The notes under the pieces are model-generated. The model saw only the letters and a program-made list of their open reading frames with translations. It had not been told where the DNA came from and ran no database searches. This document shows, piece by piece, positions 35,998 through 45,350 of a stretch of DNA of 45,350 nt. The stretch comes from Bacteroidaceae bacterium (GTDB lineage: Bacteria; Bacteroidota; Bacteroidia; Bacteroidales; Bacteroidaceae), in assembly GCA_017617805.1 (NCBI GenBank), contig JAFZVN010000091.1, positions 1 to 45,350 on the forward strand, written 5' to 3'. A program made the translations under genes and the position numbers. The first letter of the stretch is position 1. Each line of letters starts with the position of its first letter.

Positions 35998-36999
35998 ATG
36001 ATAAGCTACAAAGAACTTGGTCTCGTGAATACGCGCGAGATGTTCAAGAGAGCTGTTGCAGGCGGTTATGCCATTCCAGCTTTCAATTTCAACACAATGG
36101 AGCAGATGCAGGCTATCGTGATGGCTGCAGTTGAAACGAAGTCTCCTGTCATCATGCAGGTGTCTAAGGGCGCACGCAATTATGCGAACGGCGTTATCCT
36201 TCGTAACCTCGCTAAGGGTGCTGTGGAGTATGCTAAGGAACTCGGTTGCGAGCATCCTGAAATCGTTCTCCACCTCGACCACGGAGATAGCTTCGAACTT
36301 TGTAAGGACTGTATCGATAACGGTTTCTCTTCTGTGATGATTGACGGTTCTCACCTCCCATACGAGGAGAACGTGGCACTCGCCAAGAAGGTGGTTGAGT
36401 ATGCTCACCAGTTCGACGTGACTGTTGAGGCTGAGCTGGGTGTGCTCGCTGGTGTAGAGGATGAGGTTTCTGCTGCAGAGTCTCACTACACGAAGCCAGA
36501 AGAGGTGATTGACTTCGCTACTCGTACTGGTTGCGACTCTCTCGCTATCTCTATCGGTACTTCTCATGGTGCTCACAAGTTCACTCCTGAGCAGTGCACA
36601 CTCGTGAACGGCGTTCTCGTTCCACCACCATTGGCATTTGACATCCTCGCTGAGATCGAGAAGAAGCTTCCTGGCTTCCCAATCGTACTCCACGGTTCTT
36701 CATCAGTTCCTATGGACGAGGTGAACACTATCAACCAGTATGGTGGCAAGCTCGAGGCAGCTATCGGTATTCCTGAGGAGCAGCTTCGCAAGGCAGCTAA
36801 GAGTGCAGTATGCAAGATCAACATCGACTCTGACTCTCGTCTGGCTATGACTGCTGCTATCCGCAAGCACCTCGCTGAGCATCCTGGAGACTTCGACCCA
36901 CGTCAGTACTTGAAGCCTGCTCGTGAGAACATGAAGAAGATGTACATCCACAAGATTGTGAATGTGCTCGGTTCTGATGGAAAGCTCGCACAGGCATAA
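35998..36999 (+). CDS. fba: Class II fructose-bisphosphate aldolase
   Basis: Zinc-dependent cleavage of fructose 1,6-bisphosphate in glycolysis. GYAIPAFNFNTMEQMQAIVM near residue 21 is the family N-terminus, VLHLDHGDSFELCKDCIDNG has zinc ligand and catalytic aspartate, AVEAELG-like TVEAELGVLAGVEDE follows, and VLHGSSSVPMDEV is the phosphate-binding loop. Length 333. Codon use is strongly biased to a few C-ending and GCT/GTT codons, as expected for high expression. Its stop overlaps the start of the PAP2 gene by one base (TAATG). Confidence 0.95.
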   Translation: MISYKELGLVNTREMFKRAVAGGYAIPAFNFNTMEQMQAIVMAAVETKSPVIMQVSKGARNYANGVILRNLAKGAVEYAKELGCEHPEIVLHLDHGDSFELCKDCIDNGFSSVMIDGSHLPYEENVALAKKVVEYAHQFDVTVEAELGVLAGVEDEVSAAESHYTKPEEVIDFATRTGCDSLAISIGTSHGAHKFTPEQCTLVNGVLVPPPLAFDILAEIEKKLPGFPIVLHGSSSVPMDEVNTINQYGGKLEAAIGIPEEQLRKAAKSAVCKINIDSDSRLAMTAAIRKHLAEHPGDFDPRQYLKPARENMKKMYIHKIVNVLGSDGKLAQA

Positions 37000-38312
37000 T
37001 GCGACGCTTTACAGTTATACTGATTATTTTATTCACGGCTTCTCTGTCTATTGCATACGCGCAGGCAGAGAAGCCTGATTCTATTCTTTTGGAGGAGATT
37101 GATTCCATCCTCGCCCATTATGAGGAGATGGAACGTACGCATAAGGTGGAGAACGTCATCAAGTCGTATAATGAGCGGCAGCTGGAACGTGAGATGAAGT
37201 TCAGTTCTGATGGTGCGTTACATCTGGTACGTGGACTCCTCCTTTTGTGGACTGACCACAACTTCATTACTCGTGACGCTTATTTCGAGAAGAAGAGCAA
37301 TTCCTTCAAATGGACTGACTACGCAGTGGGAGGTATCCCATTGGCGGCCAATTATGTGTTGAAGGCAGCAGGTGTGGAAAGCCGTTCGAAGCTGGAACGT
37401 ATGCTTTCAGCCAATGCGATGGCGCTGGGTCTCTCGTTTGGTGTGTCCGAAGTGCTCAAAGTGAGTGTGCATGAGGGACGTCCCGACCAGAAAGATTCCA
37501 ATTCCTTTCCTTCTGCTCATGCCAGCTTCGCTTTTGTTTCAGCCTCCATTCTTAGTCGAGAATATGGCTACATTTCCCCTTGGATTACCATTGGTAGTTA
37601 CACGACGGCTGCGGGTACGGAACTGTTGCGCATCAAGCACAACAAACATTGGATGAACGACCTCTACATGGGTGCTGGCATCGGTGTGATGAGTACCAAT
37701 CTCGCTTATTTCCTGACTGACAAGATTTTTGGAGCTGACGCCATCAACAGCCCCGAACTGCGCAAGCGTGATGTGGAGCGTCTTATCAAGTTCAACGACC
37801 GAGCTTCAGGCTTCACGTTTGTGTCAGGTACAGAGATCGGTGACCGTACAATCCGATTTGATGACGCACGCATCAAGAGTGGAGCTGCTTTCTCAGCAGG
37901 AGCTGACGTGACGTGGTTCGCAACTCCCCACATTGCCGCTGAGTTCATGACCCGTGTGGTGGATGTGCAGGCAAAGGTGTTCGATACTCCCAATCCTTTC
38001 TCTGGCGGACATCTCGACCTCTACCACTTTGACCTTGGTGCCAAGATATCATCCCCTTACGCTCTCGGTAAGCGATTTGCCACGCGTGTGTTTGCCGGTG
38101 TGCGCATGATGGATGGCGACCAGTTCACGGATGGTCATACGACCTACACGATACCTGATGAGACTCGCTTCGAACTTGGCGCCAGCCTCACCTACGAGTG
38201 TTTGGACTCCAAGAATTATGCGTGGGGTTTTAATATTGACTATTACCACACGTTCTCTCACTACATGAAAAATCGCTACAGCCTTGCCTCCACGTGGAAG
38301 ATTCTCTTCTGA
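36999..38312 (+). CDS. PAP2 phosphatase with a probable outer-membrane beta-barrel half
   Basis: 437 residues with a signal peptide (MRRFTVILIILFTASLSIAYAQ). The PAP2 triad is complete: KVSVHEGRP, SFPSAHAS and RIKHNKHWMND (patterns K-x6-RP, PSxH, R-x5-H-x3-D). From about residue 265 the sequence alternates in amphipathic strands (AGADVTWFATPHIAAEFMTR, HFDLGAKISSPYALGKRFAT, RFELGASLTYECL) and ends in an aromatic residue (WKILF), which suggests an outer-membrane barrel. The substrate may be a lipid A or isoprenoid phosphate. It is translationally coupled to aldolase, which is an odd partner. Confidence 0.8.
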   Translation: MRRFTVILIILFTASLSIAYAQAEKPDSILLEEIDSILAHYEEMERTHKVENVIKSYNERQLEREMKFSSDGALHLVRGLLLLWTDHNFITRDAYFEKKSNSFKWTDYAVGGIPLAANYVLKAAGVESRSKLERMLSANAMALGLSFGVSEVLKVSVHEGRPDQKDSNSFPSAHASFAFVSASILSREYGYISPWITIGSYTTAAGTELLRIKHNKHWMNDLYMGAGIGVMSTNLAYFLTDKIFGADAINSPELRKRDVERLIKFNDRASGFTFVSGTEIGDRTIRFDDARIKSGAAFSAGADVTWFATPHIAAEFMTRVVDVQAKVFDTPNPFSGGHLDLYHFDLGAKISSPYALGKRFATRVFAGVRMMDGDQFTDGHTTYTIPDETRFELGASLTYECLDSKNYAWGFNIDYYHTFSHYMKNRYSLASTWKILF

Positions 38313-38392
38313 CCACCTCCGAAAACGATGCGATGAGCTTGTAGATAGACACTTTTTTCCATATTTATGGTGTTGGTTTGAGAAAAATGCAC

Positions 38393-38400
38393 TAACTTTG
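38393..38400 (+). promoter_or_regulatory. -7 promoter element for the EIIC-kduI-methyltransferase run
   Basis: TAACTTTG on the plus strand, 28 bases before the EIIC ATG. Confidence 0.6.
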
Positions 38401-38428
38401 CCGAAAATTCAATCAACTACTAACTAAT

Positions 38429-39799
38429 ATGGAACAAGTATTTTCTTACATCATCAGTCTTGGTGCCGCTGTGATGATGCCTATTCTGTTCACAATCATC
38501 GGATTGTGCATTGGCATGAAATTTGGCAAGGCACTGAAGAGCGGACTCTATGTGGGTGTCGGTTTTGTGGGCCTCAATGTGGTCACCAAATTGTTGACAG
38601 ACAATTTTACGTCTCCTTTGGAGAATATCTCCGATCTCTATCAATTGGCGTTGAAGGTATTTGATATGGGATGGCCTGCTGCTGCTGCTGTGGCTTACAA
38701 CACGGCTGTGGGCGCTTTGATTATTCCCATTCTTTTGGGTGTTAACTTCCTGCTCTTAATTACTAAATGTACGCGCACGGTCAACATCGACCTGTGGAAC
38801 TACTGGCATTTTGCCTTCATCGGTGCTGTGGCGTATTTTGTGATGGATCAGTCGTTGGCATGGGGCTATTTTGCTGCCATTGTGTGCTACATCATCACCT
38901 TGGTCATGGCAGATTTGACCGCCAAGAAGTTTCAGACGCACTATGACCTGCCAGGTATTTCCATCCCTCAACCTTTCTGTCAGAGTTTCACACCCTTTGC
39001 CGTATTGATTAACAAAGGGTTGGATCTGATTCCAGGTTTCTCCAAGCTCGATGTGGATGCAGAGGGATTGAAGAAGAAGTTTGGCGTTTTGGGTGAACCG
39101 CTCGTGTTGGGTGTCATCGTAGGTGCTCTCATAGGCATTGCTGCTCAGTTGAATATCAAGATGATTTTGGCATTGGGCGTGACGATGGGTGCTGTCATGG
39201 AGCTGATTCCACGCATCACAAGCCTTTTCATCGACGGATTGAAACCCATTGCAGAGAAGACACAGGAAGTGGTGAAGAAGAAGTTCAAGGGCAAGGAAGT
39301 CTATATCGGCATGTCGCCAGCGCTGGTGATTGGTCATCCCACCACATTGGTTTGTTCCGTCATCCTCATTCCGGTCATCTTGGCGATTGCTGTTGTCGTG
39401 CCAGGCAATCAGTTCCTTCCATTGGCATCCTTGGCGGGCATGTTCTATCTGTTCCCCCTCATCCTCCCTTATACCAAAGGTAATGTGGTGAAGAGTCTCA
39501 TCATCGGCTTCGTGGCGCTGGTGGTAGGTCTTTACTTTGTCACCGACATGGCATCAGCCTTCACACAGGCAGCCCATGAGGTGTATGCAGCCACACAAAA
39601 CGACGCTGCCAAGATTCCAGAAGGATTTGAAGCGGGTGCCCTCGATTTTGCCTCGAGCCTCTTCGGTTGGGTCATCTACAAATGCGTGGCTTCGCTGAAA
39701 TGGATTGGTGCAGGTGTGCTCACTTTGATTACGGTGGGCATGGTGGTGTGGAACCGCATGCGTATTGTGAAAGAAGAAAAGAAGGAATCTTTAGCTTGA
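38429..39799 (+). CDS. Galactitol-family EIIC permease without visible PTS partners
   Basis: 456 residues, ten or more transmembrane helices. MEQVFSYIISLGAAVMMPIL and TIIGLCIGMKFGKALKSGLY at the start, and MSPALVIGHPTTLVCSVILI later, fit the GatC/SgcC-type EIIC family of the PTS. No EIIA, EIIB, EI or HPr is present in the window, and most Bacteroidota lack a working sugar PTS, so it probably works as a secondary transporter. The next gene is kduI, which suggests a uronate or ketouronate substrate; this is an inference from order only. Confidence 0.82.
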   Translation: MEQVFSYIISLGAAVMMPILFTIIGLCIGMKFGKALKSGLYVGVGFVGLNVVTKLLTDNFTSPLENISDLYQLALKVFDMGWPAAAAVAYNTAVGALIIPILLGVNFLLLITKCTRTVNIDLWNYWHFAFIGAVAYFVMDQSLAWGYFAAIVCYIITLVMADLTAKKFQTHYDLPGISIPQPFCQSFTPFAVLINKGLDLIPGFSKLDVDAEGLKKKFGVLGEPLVLGVIVGALIGIAAQLNIKMILALGVTMGAVMELIPRITSLFIDGLKPIAEKTQEVVKKKFKGKEVYIGMSPALVIGHPTTLVCSVILIPVILAIAVVVPGNQFLPLASLAGMFYLFPLILPYTKGNVVKSLIIGFVALVVGLYFVTDMASAFTQAAHEVYAATQNDAAKIPEGFEAGALDFASSLFGWVIYKCVASLKWIGAGVLTLITVGMVVWNRMRIVKEEKKESLA

Positions 39800-39839
39800 T
39801 GAAGTCAATCATAAAAAACTAACGAATAACAAGTAACCT

Positions 39840-40814
39840 ATGAAGAAATTTATTACGAGTTGTGCCCTGCTGATGGGCGCATTGGGCATGAACGCCCAAA
39901 TGAATGTGAGCTTCCAGAAGGCTTGTCATCCAGACGATGTGAAGCACTACGACACACAGACCCTTCGCGACCGGTTCGTGATGGAAAAGGTGATGGCGCC
40001 TGACGAAATCAACCTCACGTATTCAATGTACGACCGCTTCATCTTTGGTGGCGCTATGCCTGTGACGAAGGATTTGAAGTTGGAGACCTTCCCAGAGTTG
40101 CGTGCTCCTTACTTCCTCCACAATCGTGAAATCGGTATTGTCAACACAGCTGGCGATGGTGTGGTCATTGTGGATGGCGTTGAATATCCTCTCAGCGAAC
40201 GGGAGGCCCTCTACATTGGTCGTGGCAACTTGGGCAAGGATAAGAAGGGTAACGGCATTGAGTCGAATCAGGAGGTCATCTTCCGTTCGAAAGACCCACA
40301 AAAACCCGCCAAGTTCTACATCAACTCCGCGACAGCACATCAGCACTACAAGACACAATGGATCACATTGGATGGCCGAAAGAATGGCAATGTTCAGTCG
40401 CTCAAGGCAACCGTGCTGCGCAACTTGGGTTCATTGGAAGAGTCGAACCAGCGCACTATCTATCAGCTGATTGTCAACACAGCCCTCGAAGAAGGTCCTT
40501 GTCAGTTGCAGATGGGTCTGACGCAGTTGGAGCCAGGTTCTGTATGGAACACGATGCCACCTCACACTCATGGCCGTCGCATCGAGGCTTACTATTACTT
40601 CAATCTGCCAGAGGGTCAGACCATCAGCCACATCATGGGTGAGCCCCAGGAAAGCCGTGTCGTATGGCTCCACAACGAACAGGGCATCATGTCGCCCGAA
40701 TGGTCTATCCATGCCGCTTCTGCCACCTATTATTATACCTTCATCTGGGGTATGGCAGGCGAGAACCTCGACTACAACGACAAGGATGTCATCAAAGTGA
40801 GCGACATCAGATAA
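39840..40814 (+). CDS. kduI: 5-dehydro-4-deoxy-D-glucuronate isomerase with an apparent signal peptide
   Basis: Isomerises 5-keto-4-deoxyuronate, the product of unsaturated uronate breakdown from pectin or glycosaminoglycans. Metal-binding [20 protein letters not shown] near residue 238, the [21 protein letters not shown]-terminal segment and the final [18 protein letters not shown] all match KduI. Unusually, the protein begins [20 protein letters not shown], which looks like a cleavable Sec signal; most KduI proteins are cytoplasmic. A second methionine at residue 21 could start a cytoplasmic form. It lies between the EIIC gene and the methyltransferase with short gaps. Confidence 0.9.
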
Positions 40815-40820
40815 CAGGAT

Positions 40821-41594
40821 ATGCTGAGCAAGAATAGAGTGAAATATGTGCGTTCGCTGGAGATGAAGAAATTTCGGAAGGCGGACAACGTATTCGTGGC
40901 AGAAGGACACAAACTGGTGGGCGACCTCCTCGATGTGTTCTCCTGCACCTATCTTGCAGCCACAGCCGAGTGGCTTGCCCTGCATTCCTCTTGGCTACAG
41001 AAACAGAGTGGGGTAGAGATCAACGAAGTGACAGACGAGGAATTGAAACGCCTCAGTTTTCAGGAAACACCCCAACAGGTGTTGGCTGTGTTCCGCCAAC
41101 CCACTTATGAGGTGGATGTGAACGACGTGGCGCAGCATCAATTATGTCTGGCTTTGGACGATGTGCAGAATCCAGGCAACTTAGGCACGATTGTCCGTCT
41201 TGCCGATTGGTTTGGCATCGAGCATATCTTCTGTTCCAGAGGATGTGCCGACATCTATAATCCCAAGACCGTTCAGGCCACGATGGGCGGCATAGCGAGG
41301 GTGCAGACCCACTATGTCGATTTGCCCGAGATGCTGAGTGCTCTGGACAAGACCATCCCCGTCTATGGCACCTTCCTGGATGGAGAAAATCTCTATCAGA
41401 AGCATTTGGAGAATCGAGGCTTGATTGTGATGGGCAATGAAGGAAAGGGCGTCTCAAAAGCCGTCGAGGCCTTTGTTTCCGAGCGTCTCTACATCCCCAA
41501 CTACCCATCAGGACGAGCCACCTCAGAGTCCCTGAATGTCGCCATCGCCACAGCCATCGTATGTGCCGAATTCCGCAGAATAGGAAGTATATGA
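40821..41594 (+). CDS. TrmH/SpoU-family RNA 2'-O-methyltransferase
   Basis: SAM-dependent methylation of a ribose 2'-OH in rRNA or tRNA. An N-terminal substrate-binding domain (VKYVRSLEMKKFRKADNVFV, AEGHKLVGDLLD) precedes the SPOUT knot: CLALDDVQNPGNLGTIVRLA is motif 1, LIVMGNEGKGVSKAVEAFV is motif 2 and IPNYPSGRATSESLNVAIAT is motif 3. Length 257. Starts seven bases after kduI. The target nucleotide is unknown. Confidence 0.92.
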   Translation: MLSKNRVKYVRSLEMKKFRKADNVFVAEGHKLVGDLLDVFSCTYLAATAEWLALHSSWLQKQSGVEINEVTDEELKRLSFQETPQQVLAVFRQPTYEVDVNDVAQHQLCLALDDVQNPGNLGTIVRLADWFGIEHIFCSRGCADIYNPKTVQATMGGIARVQTHYVDLPEMLSALDKTIPVYGTFLDGENLYQKHLENRGLIVMGNEGKGVSKAVEAFVSERLYIPNYPSGRATSESLNVAIATAIVCAEFRRIGSI

Positions 41595-41720: not shown

Positions 41721-42596
41721 TTATTCCGATCCTTCGTCCCAAAGTTCAAGAAGCTTTTCACTCACCTCATCTGAGAGCAAAGCACCAGAGTGACCTTTAC
41801 CCCAATCAATAGAAGGAATGGCGGCTTTCAGTTTTTCAAGGGAGACAAAAGGCACCTCACCAGGCGTTTCAGGATTTCTGCAAACCATATCCACATACAT
41901 TCTCCGTTTGGTGGTTCCCGCCCAGTCATCCGAAGGGTATGGATCGGACAAGAACTGCCCGTTGAACACAATGCCAGCCTTGTCATCACCCACACGCATC
42001 ATGTAGAAGCAATCTCCTCGTCGAGCCTCCTCCCACTCATAGATGCTCCAATTCATACGGAACATTCCATTTTTCATGTTTGCCACACACGCCTCATAGT
42101 CCTTCTCCTTGAAAGAGCTAATGGCAGGATTCCAGCGCATCAGATACTTCTTTGGTTTCTCAGGCACAGGCAGCACCTCAAAGCTCACCTCCCATATACA
42201 GCTGGTGCCATTTGACGCAGGCATGATGGGCAGACCAGCTCCTTGATAATTGAAACGGACAGTGGGTTCCGTTTCCGTTCCGATGATTTGCACCAGACAG
42301 TTCTTGCCATCCTCCTCCGTCAGCAGCAAGAATTGCAGAGAACGTTTGATGAAATATGGGAACTCACCATGATTGTACAGATAGCAACTATGATACGTGG
42401 TGGGCTTTTCATCAACATTCAAGATGAGCATCCCGTCCATGTTCTCCAATACCAGATGCTGATTATCTTCGCAGATTTGCAGGGTTATGTACCCCACCTC
42501 ACCACTACGAACCCTTTCAATCGCACCAGGATTCACCTCAATGCTCATTGCTGCCTCGTTGATGTCAACCTCCTTGTTCTTTTCTTCAGCTTTCAT
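41721..42596 (-). CDS. Protein with C-terminal EVE/PUA-like domain
   Basis: 291 residues. Residues about 150-290 fit a PUA-like (EVE-related) domain seen in 5-methylcytosine-type restriction proteins and HNH nucleases: YLMRWNP, then RRGDCFYMMRVGDDKAGIVF, SDPYPSDDW, MYVDM, and GALLSDEVSEKLLELW at the end. Such domains bind modified bases in DNA or RNA. The N-terminal 150 residues are beta-rich and unrecognised. No nuclease motif is visible. It starts four bases after the membrane protein stop, last in the operon with the RuvC nuclease. The domain call is by pattern; binding is inferred. Confidence 0.7.
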   Translation of the reverse strand: MKAEEKNKEVDINEAAMSIEVNPGAIERVRSGEVGYITLQICEDNQHLVLENMDGMLILNVDEKPTTYHSCYLYNHGEFPYFIKRSLQFLLLTEEDGKNCLVQIIGTETEPTVRFNYQGAGLPIMPASNGTSCIWEVSFEVLPVPEKPKKYLMRWNPAISSFKEKDYEACVANMKNGMFRMNWSIYEWEEARRGDCFYMMRVGDDKAGIVFNGQFLSDPYPSDDWAGTTKRRMYVDMVCRNPETPGEVPFVSLEKLKAAIPSIDWGKGHSGALLSDEVSEKLLELWDEGSE

Positions 42597-42600
42597 AGGC

Positions 42601-43407
42601 TTATTGGTTTAGATGTTTAAGTTTCAGGGGCAAAGATGTAGTCTTTTCACTTATATGATATCTATCATACTTGTTTACCAATTCATTAAGTGATTCCCTG
42701 GAACGATCATAATCAAGCAGGCTTTTCTTTAAAATGCCAAATCTTATGTTAAGATCTTCTGTACTAAATGAAGTTTTCATGTAGCCAGCACATCTTCCTC
42801 TTAATAGCGAAATAAAACTATCATGCTTAATTGCTGAAAGAACTCTATGATTTTCTGGTGATAACCATGAAGCCATAGCTTGGATATCAAATAAAATTTC
42901 ATCTAACTTTTGTAATGAAAGAGATAAGGCAATCAAATATTCTGGCTTAAAATGTACATTATACCCAAACTCTTCGACAGACAAACTATTCCTCTCACAA
43001 TAAGGCTTGCAATCTTCCCGTATTACTCTCTCTACAAATGATTTCAAATCGAAATCTGTGGAATAATCTTCATTCGTACAACTGACCGCCATAAAATCCC
43101 CCAAAGCCTCTCTTAATTCGGCCAGTTTGTCGGAGAGATGAGGAAGGATTATAAAACGACTTTGTATGGTTGGAATTATTACAGAGAAAACAAAGAAAAG
43201 AGAACCCGCTATATAGCTTAATGAGAGGCTATGTACAATTACATTTACAACCTGATTATATTCAGAAGGGAGGGCTGTCTTAATGTAAAAATCTGGTAAT
43301 AAAGTCCATAATGATAGAAGAAAGGCTATTATTGTTGATAGCCAAACTAATTTATAATTATAGATGACTTCTTTTATTATTGTTGTATAAACCTGTTTCT
43401 TTGTCAT
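42601..43407 (-). CDS. Two-helix membrane protein, unknown function, coupled to the RuvC nuclease
   Basis: 268 residues from the ATG at 43407, one base after the nuclease stop; an alternative TTG start at 43428 would overlap it. Two hydrophobic segments lie at about residues 19-38 (KLVWLSTIIAFLLSLWTLLP) and 58-82 (HSLSLSYIAGSLFFVFSVII). The remaining 185 residues are soluble and mostly helical, probably cytoplasmic, with four or five cysteines but no catalytic motif I recognise. The gene is clearly richer in A/T than its neighbours, a sign of recent transfer. Not matched to a known family from memory. Its tight coupling suggests a role with the nuclease, perhaps as a membrane-acting effector. 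Confidence 0.75.
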   Translation of the reverse strand: MTKKQVYTTIIKEVIYNYKLVWLSTIIAFLLSLWTLLPDFYIKTALPSEYNQVVNVIVHSLSLSYIAGSLFFVFSVIIPTIQSRFIILPHLSDKLAELREALGDFMAVSCTNEDYSTDFDLKSFVERVIREDCKPYCERNSLSVEEFGYNVHFKPEYLIALSLSLQKLDEILFDIQAMASWLSPENHRVLSAIKHDSFISLLRGRCAGYMKTSFSTEDLNIRFGILKKSLLDYDRSRESLNELVNKYDRYHISEKTTSLPLKLKHLNQ

Positions 43408-43408
43408 A

Positions 43409-44986
43409 TTACAAATCCTTCGCCCCAATCGTTGAGCGGTCGTCTTTCTTCTCCTTATTTTTATAGCGCAAGATTTCCTCCTGCTCCAGTTCGCAGAAGC
43501 GGTCGTAGTGCTGCGCCATTGCTTCCGTGTCGTACTGCTTCTTCTCGGCTTCGTCGTACTTCAGGTGTTGCAGGTTGAAGGCTGCAAGCATATCACGCTG
43601 GTGGGTGTCGCCATTCGAAAGGGTAACACTACGTTCTTTCAGTTCGTGCTTCTCAAAGCTGTTGTTCGTGAAGTCGTATTGGCTGGCAGCATTCTGCGTG
43701 TCCACCTTCACCACCTCACCACCCAGCGACTTCACTTTGTTCTCCAAGATAGTGACGAACATAGCCGGAGCATGGTTGGCTACCGACTTGCCGAAGCGTT
43801 TCTTCTTCTGAATCTTGCCCGTCTTCTCGTTCACCTTGGTTTCTTTGGCCTTTCGCGTCCAACCGCTTATCTGGTTATTCTCCACGATAAACGTATCGCC
43901 CTCTTTCAACAGCGCGTTGGCTCTGTCAATGTGCTGCTGTTTGCGGATGGCAGCCTGACGGCGTAGCAACTCAGCCATCTCCTTGCGTAATTCCTTGTAA
44001 CGTTTCGAGTCGTTCCACACCAGTCGCACACCTCGTTTGATGGTGCCGTCCTCGTTGAAGTTCTCAGGATTGTTGGCTCTGCGGCTGCGGTCAATCTTTC
44101 GGGCCAAGCGTGTAATCTCCTTCTGGATGTTATCGCACTTCGAAGCCAGTTTGTCGATGCTGGCAATGTTTACTCCAGAAACGGCTACGGTGGTAGGACC
44201 AATATCAATACCCACATTGCCCTTGCCCAGCGTTCTTCCCTTCTGTGGTTTCTCTCCCTCGATACTCATCTGTAGGTAGTACTTATACTGACCTCGTACC
44301 AATCGGCGAACCACCGTGATTACTTTCACGCTGTCATAACCGCCCTTTAAAGCCCACATTTCATAGTCTGCATGCTTAGGGGTATGCAGAATTGGTAGGA
44401 TGATAAACTTTGCTTTTTTGCCAGTTTTACTATTTAACTTGATAGCTAATTCCATCTTCTCAAGATGTAGTTCCATACCCGAGAAAACTTTCTTCCTACT
44501 ACCATTCATTTTCTTTCCACATCCGAAGGAGTTCAACTCTCCATGCCTTTTGAACGATATTTTTCTAGCTTTATTATCGTACAGCAACTTGTTCCAAGAA
44601 GACCAGATGTTGTCTGATAATTTTGCCAAAATAGCGGAATTAATACCGATATCAGTATAAGTCTTCTCATTGCTGATGCTTTTCAGTCCCAGCTTTGTCA
44701 CAAAACCATTGATACCATAATCGTCAAAAGTAATGTCAAGCAGCTCCTTGTTACTGCCCAAGATGCCGTTGATGTGAAAAGGATGATTTTTAAAGAAATC
44801 CCGTTTCTCCTTGATACTCTTGCAAGCTTGAAACTCAGCCATTTGCTCGAAGTATCTGTACTGACGGAGCAACTTCCCCTGCACATAGTTGTACAATTGG
44901 CGAAGCTGCTCGTAACGCTTGTTGAGGATATCTGCCTGATACTTCTCAACCTGCAAAGGCAATTCCAATACAAATACTTCTTCCAT
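43409..44986 (-). CDS. RuvC-fold nuclease related to TnpB/Cas12, no zinc ribbon
   Basis: 525 residues from the ATG at 44986 (MEEVFVLELPLQVEKYQADI); an upstream GTG at 45022 would run through the first hairpin and looks wrong. The RuvC site is intact: D261 in GNVGIDIGPTTVAVSG, E369 in FIVENNQISGW and D465 in GDTHQRDMLAAFNL. Between the first two, a long basic helical insert contains KIDRSRRANNPENFNEDGTI. The region that in TnpB holds two CxxC pairs (NAASQYDFTNNSFEKHEL, then KERSVTLSNGD) has no cysteine. The N-terminal 250 residues would be the WED/REC part. No TnpA or IS200/IS605 ends are seen. It is headed by a three-repeat array. Either a Cas12-like effector or a domesticated TnpB. Confidence 0.85.
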   Translation of the reverse strand: MEEVFVLELPLQVEKYQADILNKRYEQLRQLYNYVQGKLLRQYRYFEQMAEFQACKSIKEKRDFFKNHPFHINGILGSNKELLDITFDDYGINGFVTKLGLKSISNEKTYTDIGINSAILAKLSDNIWSSWNKLLYDNKARKISFKRHGELNSFGCGKKMNGSRKKVFSGMELHLEKMELAIKLNSKTGKKAKFIILPILHTPKHADYEMWALKGGYDSVKVITVVRRLVRGQYKYYLQMSIEGEKPQKGRTLGKGNVGIDIGPTTVAVSGVNIASIDKLASKCDNIQKEITRLARKIDRSRRANNPENFNEDGTIKRGVRLVWNDSKRYKELRKEMAELLRRQAAIRKQQHIDRANALLKEGDTFIVENNQISGWTRKAKETKVNEKTGKIQKKKRFGKSVANHAPAMFVTILENKVKSLGGEVVKVDTQNAASQYDFTNNSFEKHELKERSVTLSNGDTHQRDMLAAFNLQHLKYDEAEKKQYDTEAMAQHYDRFCELEQEEILRYKNKEKKDDRSTIGAKDL

Positions 44987-44987
44987 A

Positions 44988-45154
44988 ATTTCAAATAACC
45001 AAATTTTCCGGGTGACTATCACCCGGCAAAACAGCCACTACAACGACTACCACCTGTCAATAGCCTACATTTCTAGGTGACCATCACCGACCGTTCACGG
45101 CAGGGTACAACTTGCCAACCTGTCAATAGCCAACATTTCTGGGTGACCATCACC
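44988..45154 (-). CRISPR. Three-repeat, two-spacer CRISPR-like array upstream of the RuvC nuclease
   Basis: Read on the minus strand, repeats of 36 nt lie at 45154-45119, 45088-45053 and 45023-44988, with unique stretches of 30 nt (45089-45118) and 29 nt (45024-45052). Repeat starts are 66 and 65 bases apart. The first two repeats match at 34 of 36 positions; the third matches the first at about 26 of 36 without gaps and ends one base before the nuclease ATG. Each repeat begins GGTGAT(G/A)GTCACC, a five-pair hairpin, and the two good copies end GGCTATTGACAGG. Degeneration of the repeat nearest the gene fits a leader on the right. With only three copies, hairpin operators or attenuators remain possible. 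Confidence 0.6.
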
Positions 45155-45350
45155 CTATAGTGCATAATCACCTAGGAATGAATAAAATAGGCCATGATTT
45201 GCATACTCAAAGACTTGCTCTATACTCCCATTCCCGAAGGAACTGACTGTTATTTTTGCATTCTTAATTCTGCAGAATCGTTTGTCGCACCAGCCGCCCA
45301 CTGGCATTAGCTTAACGTGCGCAAGGCCTGACAACACCTTTATGGTTGCA
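45155..45350 (-). other. Possible leader, or the 3' end of a truncated frame
   Basis: A minus-strand frame is open from the window edge to a TAG at 45155-45157, exactly where the first repeat begins; it reads VLSGLAHVKLMPVGG and later SSFGNGSIEQVFEYANHGL. It is not recognised and may be chance. CCTA-GTG-CAC-TAGG pairing at 45154-45176 could form a small hairpin before the array. I see no further intact repeat to the right. Confidence 0.25.
45182..45211 (-). promoter_or_regulatory. Weak candidate promoter reading into the array
   Basis: On the minus strand TTTG (45211-45208) and TATTTTAT (45189-45182) are 18 bases apart. The -7 element has two mismatches to TAnnTTTG. If used, transcription would start near 45175, just before the first repeat. 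Confidence 0.25.

Follow-up and report, generated by a model that had tools for sequence, protein, structure and literature searches.

A TnpB/Cas12-like nuclease with a tracrRNA-like RNA and a short CRISPR array in rumen Bacteroidales, and a possible type II source of spacers in one relative

The window analysed here comprises the 45,350 nucleotides (nt) of contig JAFZVN010000091.1 (assembly GCA_017617805.1) from a Bacteroidaceae bacterium of the gut that is related to Prevotella from the rumen, and represents contig C47 of a 92-contig genome that is 66% complete. Close to its right end, three elements follow each other on the minus strand: a conserved structured RNA (45155..45338), an array of clustered regularly interspaced short palindromic repeats (CRISPR) and the gene of a TnpB/Cas12-like effector of 525 amino acids (43409..44986), together occupying only ~1.9 kb. 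As delineated by repeat search and alignment of relatives, the array consists of repeat 1 (leader-proximal, 45119..45154), spacer 1 (30 nt, 45089..45118), repeat 2 (45053..45088), spacer 2 (29 nt, 45024..45052) and the degenerate, gene-proximal repeat 3 (44988..45023), which ends 1 nt short of the ATG. A first-pass annotation, made from the sequence alone, had described such an array on the nuclease strand, and its geometry was recovered: three 36-nt repeats starting 65 and 66 bases apart (n=3), separated by 30 and 29 nt and ending one base before the gene. Repeats 1 and 2 differ at 2/36 positions, as had been stated; the roughly ten differences ascribed to the gene-proximal copy were slightly too few, since its 68% match to a 37-nt reference copy corresponds to somewhat more than 10.

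The effector is predicted to be a single RuvC nuclease related to TnpB and Cas12. It matches the curated guided_TnpB profile at E 5e-20 with 72.1 bits, which is below the cut-off of 100, and of the PADLOC defence profiles only Cas12u2 (E 7e-10) and Cas12u4 (E 1e-8) were matched, both confined to residues 224-491. The Cas12f1-like TNB domain (PF07282) scored 21.5 bits and did not reach its curated cut-off of 26.3. The RuvC triad D261, E369 and D465 is kept in all 31 ingroup proteins, and residues 410-465 (window numbering) are devoid of cysteines, and hence of zinc-finger cysteines, in 27 of these, the window's protein included. With the family profile, the sole match among solved structures at E <= 0.1 was Cas12n (RdCas12n, 9j09; E 8e-4), restricted to the RuvC part; phmmer of the single protein against PDB retrieved one match only, a ribosomal protein at E 0.55, and IMG/VR contained no relative of the effector protein.

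Scanning of genome contigs yielded 24 loci, three of which (L024-L026) match the gene in part and were left out of the array examination. The remaining 21 relatives, all with a complete gene 5' end, possess an array of 2-41 repeats upstream of the gene, and these homologous repeats with different spacers place the array beyond chance. Their genomes are of uncultured origin, with several ruminant hosts, and are assigned to Bacteroidales, Bacteroidaceae, Prevotellaceae or Prevotella. From 22 loci, 121 spacers of 28-30 nt were collected, spurious far-upstream repeat matches (L003, L014, L021) and two spacers containing N or misparsed having been dropped; four spacers from printed sequence were added later, giving 125. 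Among the 121, the best match between loci was 18/30 and no spacer was common to two loci. The reading of the intervening segments as guides was thereby supported: segments conserved along with the repeats, or a lack of repeats, occurred in none of the 21 relatives. The degeneration of the leader-distal repeat is likewise a family trait, the last copy being the most divergent in 20/22 loci; it is located 0-5 nt from the ATG, except in L008 and L023, where the last recognised repeat is 64 nt away. The array of L019 contains 41 repeats and 40 spacers, one of them present twice and two overlapping with an 8-nt offset, pointing to repeated capture from one source. In L011 (6001-7587), the effector gene has an in-frame stop at codon 53 and the array is apparently intact.

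The RNA of ~185 nt preceding the array was detected by alignment of relatives and resembles trans-activating CRISPR RNA (tracrRNA) or omegaRNA; no Rfam family was matched at E <= 1 for this region. It is whole in 17/21 relatives and cut by the contig end in L006, L020 and L023; in the window, the contig ends only 12 bases upstream of it. Mean column identity amounts to 90% (19 sequences, including the window and a second copy on contig C88 of the same genome), and the RNAalifold consensus has 51 pairs, 8 of which are changed on both sides. A TAnnTTTG box, which we take to be the -7 promoter element of Bacteroidetes, is positioned 8-11 nt upstream of the first GG of the RNA in 16/17 loci, and a single transcript carrying RNA, array and effector is plausible. 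On the minus strand, UUGUCA at the RNA 5' end (45329..45334) could pair with UGACAG at the 3' end of repeat 1 (45120..45125) in a pseudoknot-like helix 1, and GGUGAUU (45166..45172) is a candidate antirepeat to the repeat 5' half (helix 2). Helix 1 is paired in 97.6% of alignment cells. In three relatives with arrays downstream of the gene, it shows a joint change at one pair (C-G to A-U), one one-sided change and one lost pair; compensatory events are few because these three rows include close kin. Taken together, both helices pair in 93.4% of cells, as compared to 25-70% in slid controls and 89.7% in shuffles. Helix 1 sits where the TnpB omegaRNA has its pseudoknot (PMC10097598).

Downstream arrays were found in eight more distant relatives (L029-L031, L151, L160-L163). 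Identity to the window protein is 62-63% for L029-L031, 55% for L151 and 44% for L032; in the last of these, a similar RNA is located downstream of the gene (1316-1485) and no array was found. The reading frame of the effector continues through the RNA in both L151 and L160, in the way TnpB and omegaRNA overlap. The L032 RNA has UUGUCA at its 5' end and UGACAA ~150 nt further on, i.e. both pseudoknot arms in one stretch. On the tree, three changes account for the four groups, the minimum possible; the upstream-layout group has weak support (65/45) and the root is unsure. L032 was considered as the unsplit ancestor, a reading that the tree does not support, as it groups L032 with the downstream-array proteins; given its long branch and the unsure root, array loss is as likely as ancestry. 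The RNA-nuclease pair occurs in three arrangements within the family, with RNA and array both upstream of the gene, with both downstream of it, or with an RNA and no array. These offer a natural series in which to study the transition from omegaRNA to tracrRNA plus CRISPR RNA (crRNA). The repeats of the downstream group (GTTGTGGTT...GATACAAG; L029, L031) resemble at both ends the type II repeat of the L011 genome (GTTGTGGTTT...GATACAAC; L144).

Judged by sequence matches above the null, spacers of the family correspond to temperate phages of the rumen, and the search of the window's segments against phage sequence pointed the same way for spacer 2. The first 21 nt of spacer 2 match 10 IMG/VR contigs; in nine of these the match reaches 23 nt, with the last 6 nt differing, and these nine carry a portal gene homologue, the tenth (L039) being without it. 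The 5' flank of the matched sites is TTC (TTT in L043). In L040, the protospacer lies inside the portal gene; genes for portal, head closure, adaptor, integrase, tail fibre and endolysin mark L040 as a temperate tailed phage. In IMG/VR, neither the first 21 nt of spacer 1 nor the initial 23 nt of the spacer duplicated in L019 had an exact match, and the window array region had no match in the phage reference collection; the L019 array against phage and plasmid reference collections gave best E values of 0.7-0.9, which are not significant, and the L008 array against phages did likewise. For the family-wide comparison, a viral set of 88 loci (84 distinct contig names, 859 kb) was used, after a portal alignment had fetched 80 loci; the set is not random, as 11 loci entered via window and L019 spacers, so that the L019 matches in L035 exist by construction. 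Six of the 125 spacers matched this set exactly and 15 at <=5 mismatches, as opposed to 0 and 0 for reversed spacers; at <=7 mismatches the ratio was 22 to 1.

The matched sites point to a protospacer-adjacent motif (PAM) on the protospacer 5' side. Pyrimidines at -3 and -2 (YY) were present for 14/16 spacers versus 4.2 expected (<=2 mismatches, family-genome matches added), from which 5'-YYN is predicted. With 24 spacers at <=5 mismatches, 5' columns reached up to 0.43 bits and 3' columns up to 0.20. The motif also accompanies targets within the L019 genome itself: three L019 spacers match exactly there, in nadA, a GDSL lipase gene and a SIS-domain gene (own-genome match loci L189, L190, L191), a fourth matches a cation efflux gene with one mismatch, and all four self-sites possess the motif.

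A cas1 gene was not found at the locus. A search for Cas1 only, not for Cas2 or Cas4, detected it in 2/22 upstream-array genomes, on contigs other than that of the locus, and in 4/8 downstream-array genomes; in the L007 genome, 99% complete and with eight repeats at the locus, no Cas1 was found. Gaps in metagenome-assembled genomes (MAGs) can explain some of these absences. In the L019 genome, the only Cas1 found lies together with Cas9 and a type II array of 20 repeats and 19 spacers on another contig, and three of these 19 spacers are also L019 spacers, in the same register and inverted (30/30, 28/29 and 27/29 positions; type II array at L143 2380-3886, TnpB-side array at L019 3300-5998). 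When 266 spacers from 36 arrays were each compared with all others on both strands, those three were the sole between-array matches at the script threshold; random draws from one 40-kb phage would yield ~0.04 such coincidences by rough estimate. The L019-side and type II repeats end alike at the junction (GGTGTTAAT and AGTGTTTAT). Compared with its own genome, the type II array gave, apart from the match to itself, matches to the L019 array, to one further copy of its 47-nt repeat and, weakly, to two other places (84%, 81%); self-matching spacers number 4/40 in L019, a contrast too slight to be informative. The further repeat copy, perhaps a piece of a second array, is located at a contig edge of the L019 genome (G317:C38:97-146).

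The flanks of L019 protospacers carry additional signal. GG at -6 and -5 was present in 8.6/12 of them (expected 0.7) and in 0/7 at other loci (Fisher p 0.003, on 9/3 vs 0/7), and CG at -7 and -6 in 5.6/12 and 0/7, respectively. Viewed in the inverted frame, CG also occurs for three of the four type II spacers having targets at <=3 mismatches (background 0.07). This partial agreement is suggestive only of a flank motif common to both arrays; a simple NRR 3' motif does not fit the type II targets. At the other loci, G-Y-C was found at -4 to -2 in 5.5/7, as if those arrays were fed by other donors.

We regard it as probable that these loci encode compact, DNA-targeting, type V-like systems which derive from TnpB, use a tracrRNA and borrow their adaptation in trans, with a donor indicated in one genome, that of L019. 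The tracrRNA-like RNA, the short array and the effector would share one transcript. Pairing between the 5' end of the tracrRNA and the 3' end of each repeat, beside the spacer, would form a pseudoknot as in TnpB and Cas12 guides. The effector with its intact RuvC triad would then be guided to phage DNA next to the statistically derived 5'-YYN, where it presumably cleaves. New spacers would be supplied in trans, in L019 most likely by the resident type II Cas9-Cas1 machinery filing the same prespacers in inverted orientation; the inversion would bring a 3' acquisition motif to the 5' side, where the effector needs it. The full version of this proposal, a 5'-PAM nuclease cassette of rumen Bacteroidales with its own tracrRNA-array-effector operon, whose memory is written by the Cas9 system of the host and whose repeat orientation turns the Cas9 3' motif into a 5' PAM, is put forward tentatively, its chances being rated somewhat below even.

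Several observations weigh against these proposals. As to the RNA, L017 lacks its 5' part including the pseudoknot arm though the contig continues, the fold of the window RNA joined to repeat 1 does not surpass those of shuffled sequences (z -0.32), the antirepeat helix is broken in 3-6 of 21 rows, and shuffles equal the real pairing on two of five measures (double-change pairs in 94/500, further pair types in 456/500). The predicted structure of the effector is only fair (mean predicted local distance difference test 63, predicted template modelling score 0.41). The window's own target match is partial (23/29), YY is absent at 2/16 well-matched protospacers, and strong cleavage at the L019 self-matches should be lethal; the alternatives are a nuclease of low or no activity in this host and a MAG composed of more than one strain. 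Failure to find Cas1 in 20/22 hosts leaves trans adaptation unexplained there, unless MAG gaps account for it. The flank counts for L019 include 4/12 sites that are own-genome matches, and the motif was noticed in the same data before counting. Finally, full CGG was present for only 2.1/4, and YY for 2/4, of the type II spacers with targets at <=3 mismatches, and the shortfall in CGG lowered the estimated probability of adaptation in trans.

The self-matches also speak for an effector that blocks or silences its targets, or nicks them weakly, in the manner of Cas12m or TnpB-derived repressors, the array still serving as a working guide store: exact, motif-bearing sites exist in nadA, the GDSL lipase and the SIS-domain genes, and the TNB domain has lost its zinc finger. 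Retention of D261, E369 and D465 in all 31 ingroup proteins speaks for a cleaving enzyme, however, and strain mixing in the MAG or an unexpressed locus may account for the self-matches; we judge this alternative unlikely. About equally improbable is that the three spacers shared in L019 were acquired independently from the same phages, each locus using machinery of its own. Both arrays do target the same phage group, their flank motifs agree only in part, and for two of the shared spacers the aligned sequences show 1 and 2 differences, so that they are not copies of one event. Coincidence would nevertheless have to produce a common register and inverted orientation in all three pairs, at the low rate estimated above for a 40-kb phage, in a genome with one Cas1 found overall and none at the array. 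Very improbable is a homing TnpB transposon that maintains itself at its sites, with the repeats as accumulated element ends: the relatedness to TnpB, the variation by locus of sequence beyond promoter and stop codon, and the position of the RNA on the 3' side of the gene in distant relatives, which TnpB elements share, are confronted with regular 65/66-nt units, up to 41 repeats, spacers matching phage genes and the failure to see a regularly linked transposase, as no neighbouring protein family occurs in more than 5/22 loci (nuclease and frames overlapping gene or array set aside; several contigs are short and no TnpA profile was run).

Compared with known systems, the preferred tracrRNA-using, TnpB-derived system is close to type V-U, with which it shares a TnpB-like RuvC effector, an array and a locus without cas1 and whose Cas12u2 and Cas12u4 it matches; it differs in that tracrRNA and array are upstream, with the terminal repeat beside the ATG, and in that the V-U match covers only residues 224-491. 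The match to RdCas12n is weak and limited to profile positions 318-471. The split anatomy seen at the locus may relate it to TranC (LaTranC), transposon-CRISPR intermediates of a TnpB lineage in which tracrRNA and crRNA are separate parts of the guide. The omegaRNA of ISDra2 TnpB is one RNA with one guide and its protein has a CCCC zinc finger, in contrast to the split RNA, the array and the missing zinc finger of the present locus. TnpB of IS200/IS605 or IS607 differs in that the locus effector lacks the CCCC zinc finger and stays below the guided_TnpB cut-off, and Cas12f (V-F) in that the TNB-domain cut-off is not reached. According to PMC12669027, TnpB is inferred to have given rise to type V variants about 50 times, so that a further origin would be of a known kind. 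For the sharing of spacers, PMC8092290 describes a precedent in Flavobacterium columnare, where a type VI-B array without adaptation genes shares its protospacer pool with a resident II-C array, its acquisition motif is reverse-complemented relative to that of II-C, and feeding by the II-C Cas1 was shown by cas1 deletion. The geometry is the same as in L019, where the case is made by sequence in one genome; VI-B targets RNA and is seemingly independent of a PAM, whereas the inversion here would provide a 5'-PAM DNA nuclease with a motif on the correct side. A literature search covering titles and abstract openings among the matches listed, with some key papers outside it, retrieved no such locus and no type II-fed TnpB-like array. 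Within that scope, two features appear to be new, the placement of RNA and array upstream of the effector and the occurrence of the same spacers, inverted and in register, in a type II array. The first-pass annotation had mentioned neither the tracrRNA-like RNA nor the relatives with downstream arrays, the scarcity of Cas1 or the connection to a type II array.

To our knowledge, the source of spacers in TnpB-derived systems without adaptation genes is an open question. L019 offers one natural case that points to a donor, by way of shared protospacers and of a geometry that would make the sharing useful, inversion placing the 3' motif of Cas9 on the 5' side that is read by Cas12-like enzymes. 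If this is true, a single-gene effector could come to provide adaptive immunity with no cas1 of its own at any stage.

With respect to the surroundings of the locus, metabolic genes flank it in the window (35998-41594: class II aldolase, PAP2, PTS EIIC-GAT, KduI and SpoU methylase), and for the two genes beside the nuclease (41721-43428) no Pfam family was matched at E <= 0.001. The second copy of RNA and repeat in the window's genome (contig C88; L002 / L145) is 94% identical and cut at the array, and represents either a second locus or a strain variant; helicase- and primase-like genes, judged by eye, are located near it. A primase-like family, also recognised by eye, is found near the locus in 5/22 cases (L003, L006, L016, L018 and L021), and its recurrence suggests that some copies ride on integrative elements.
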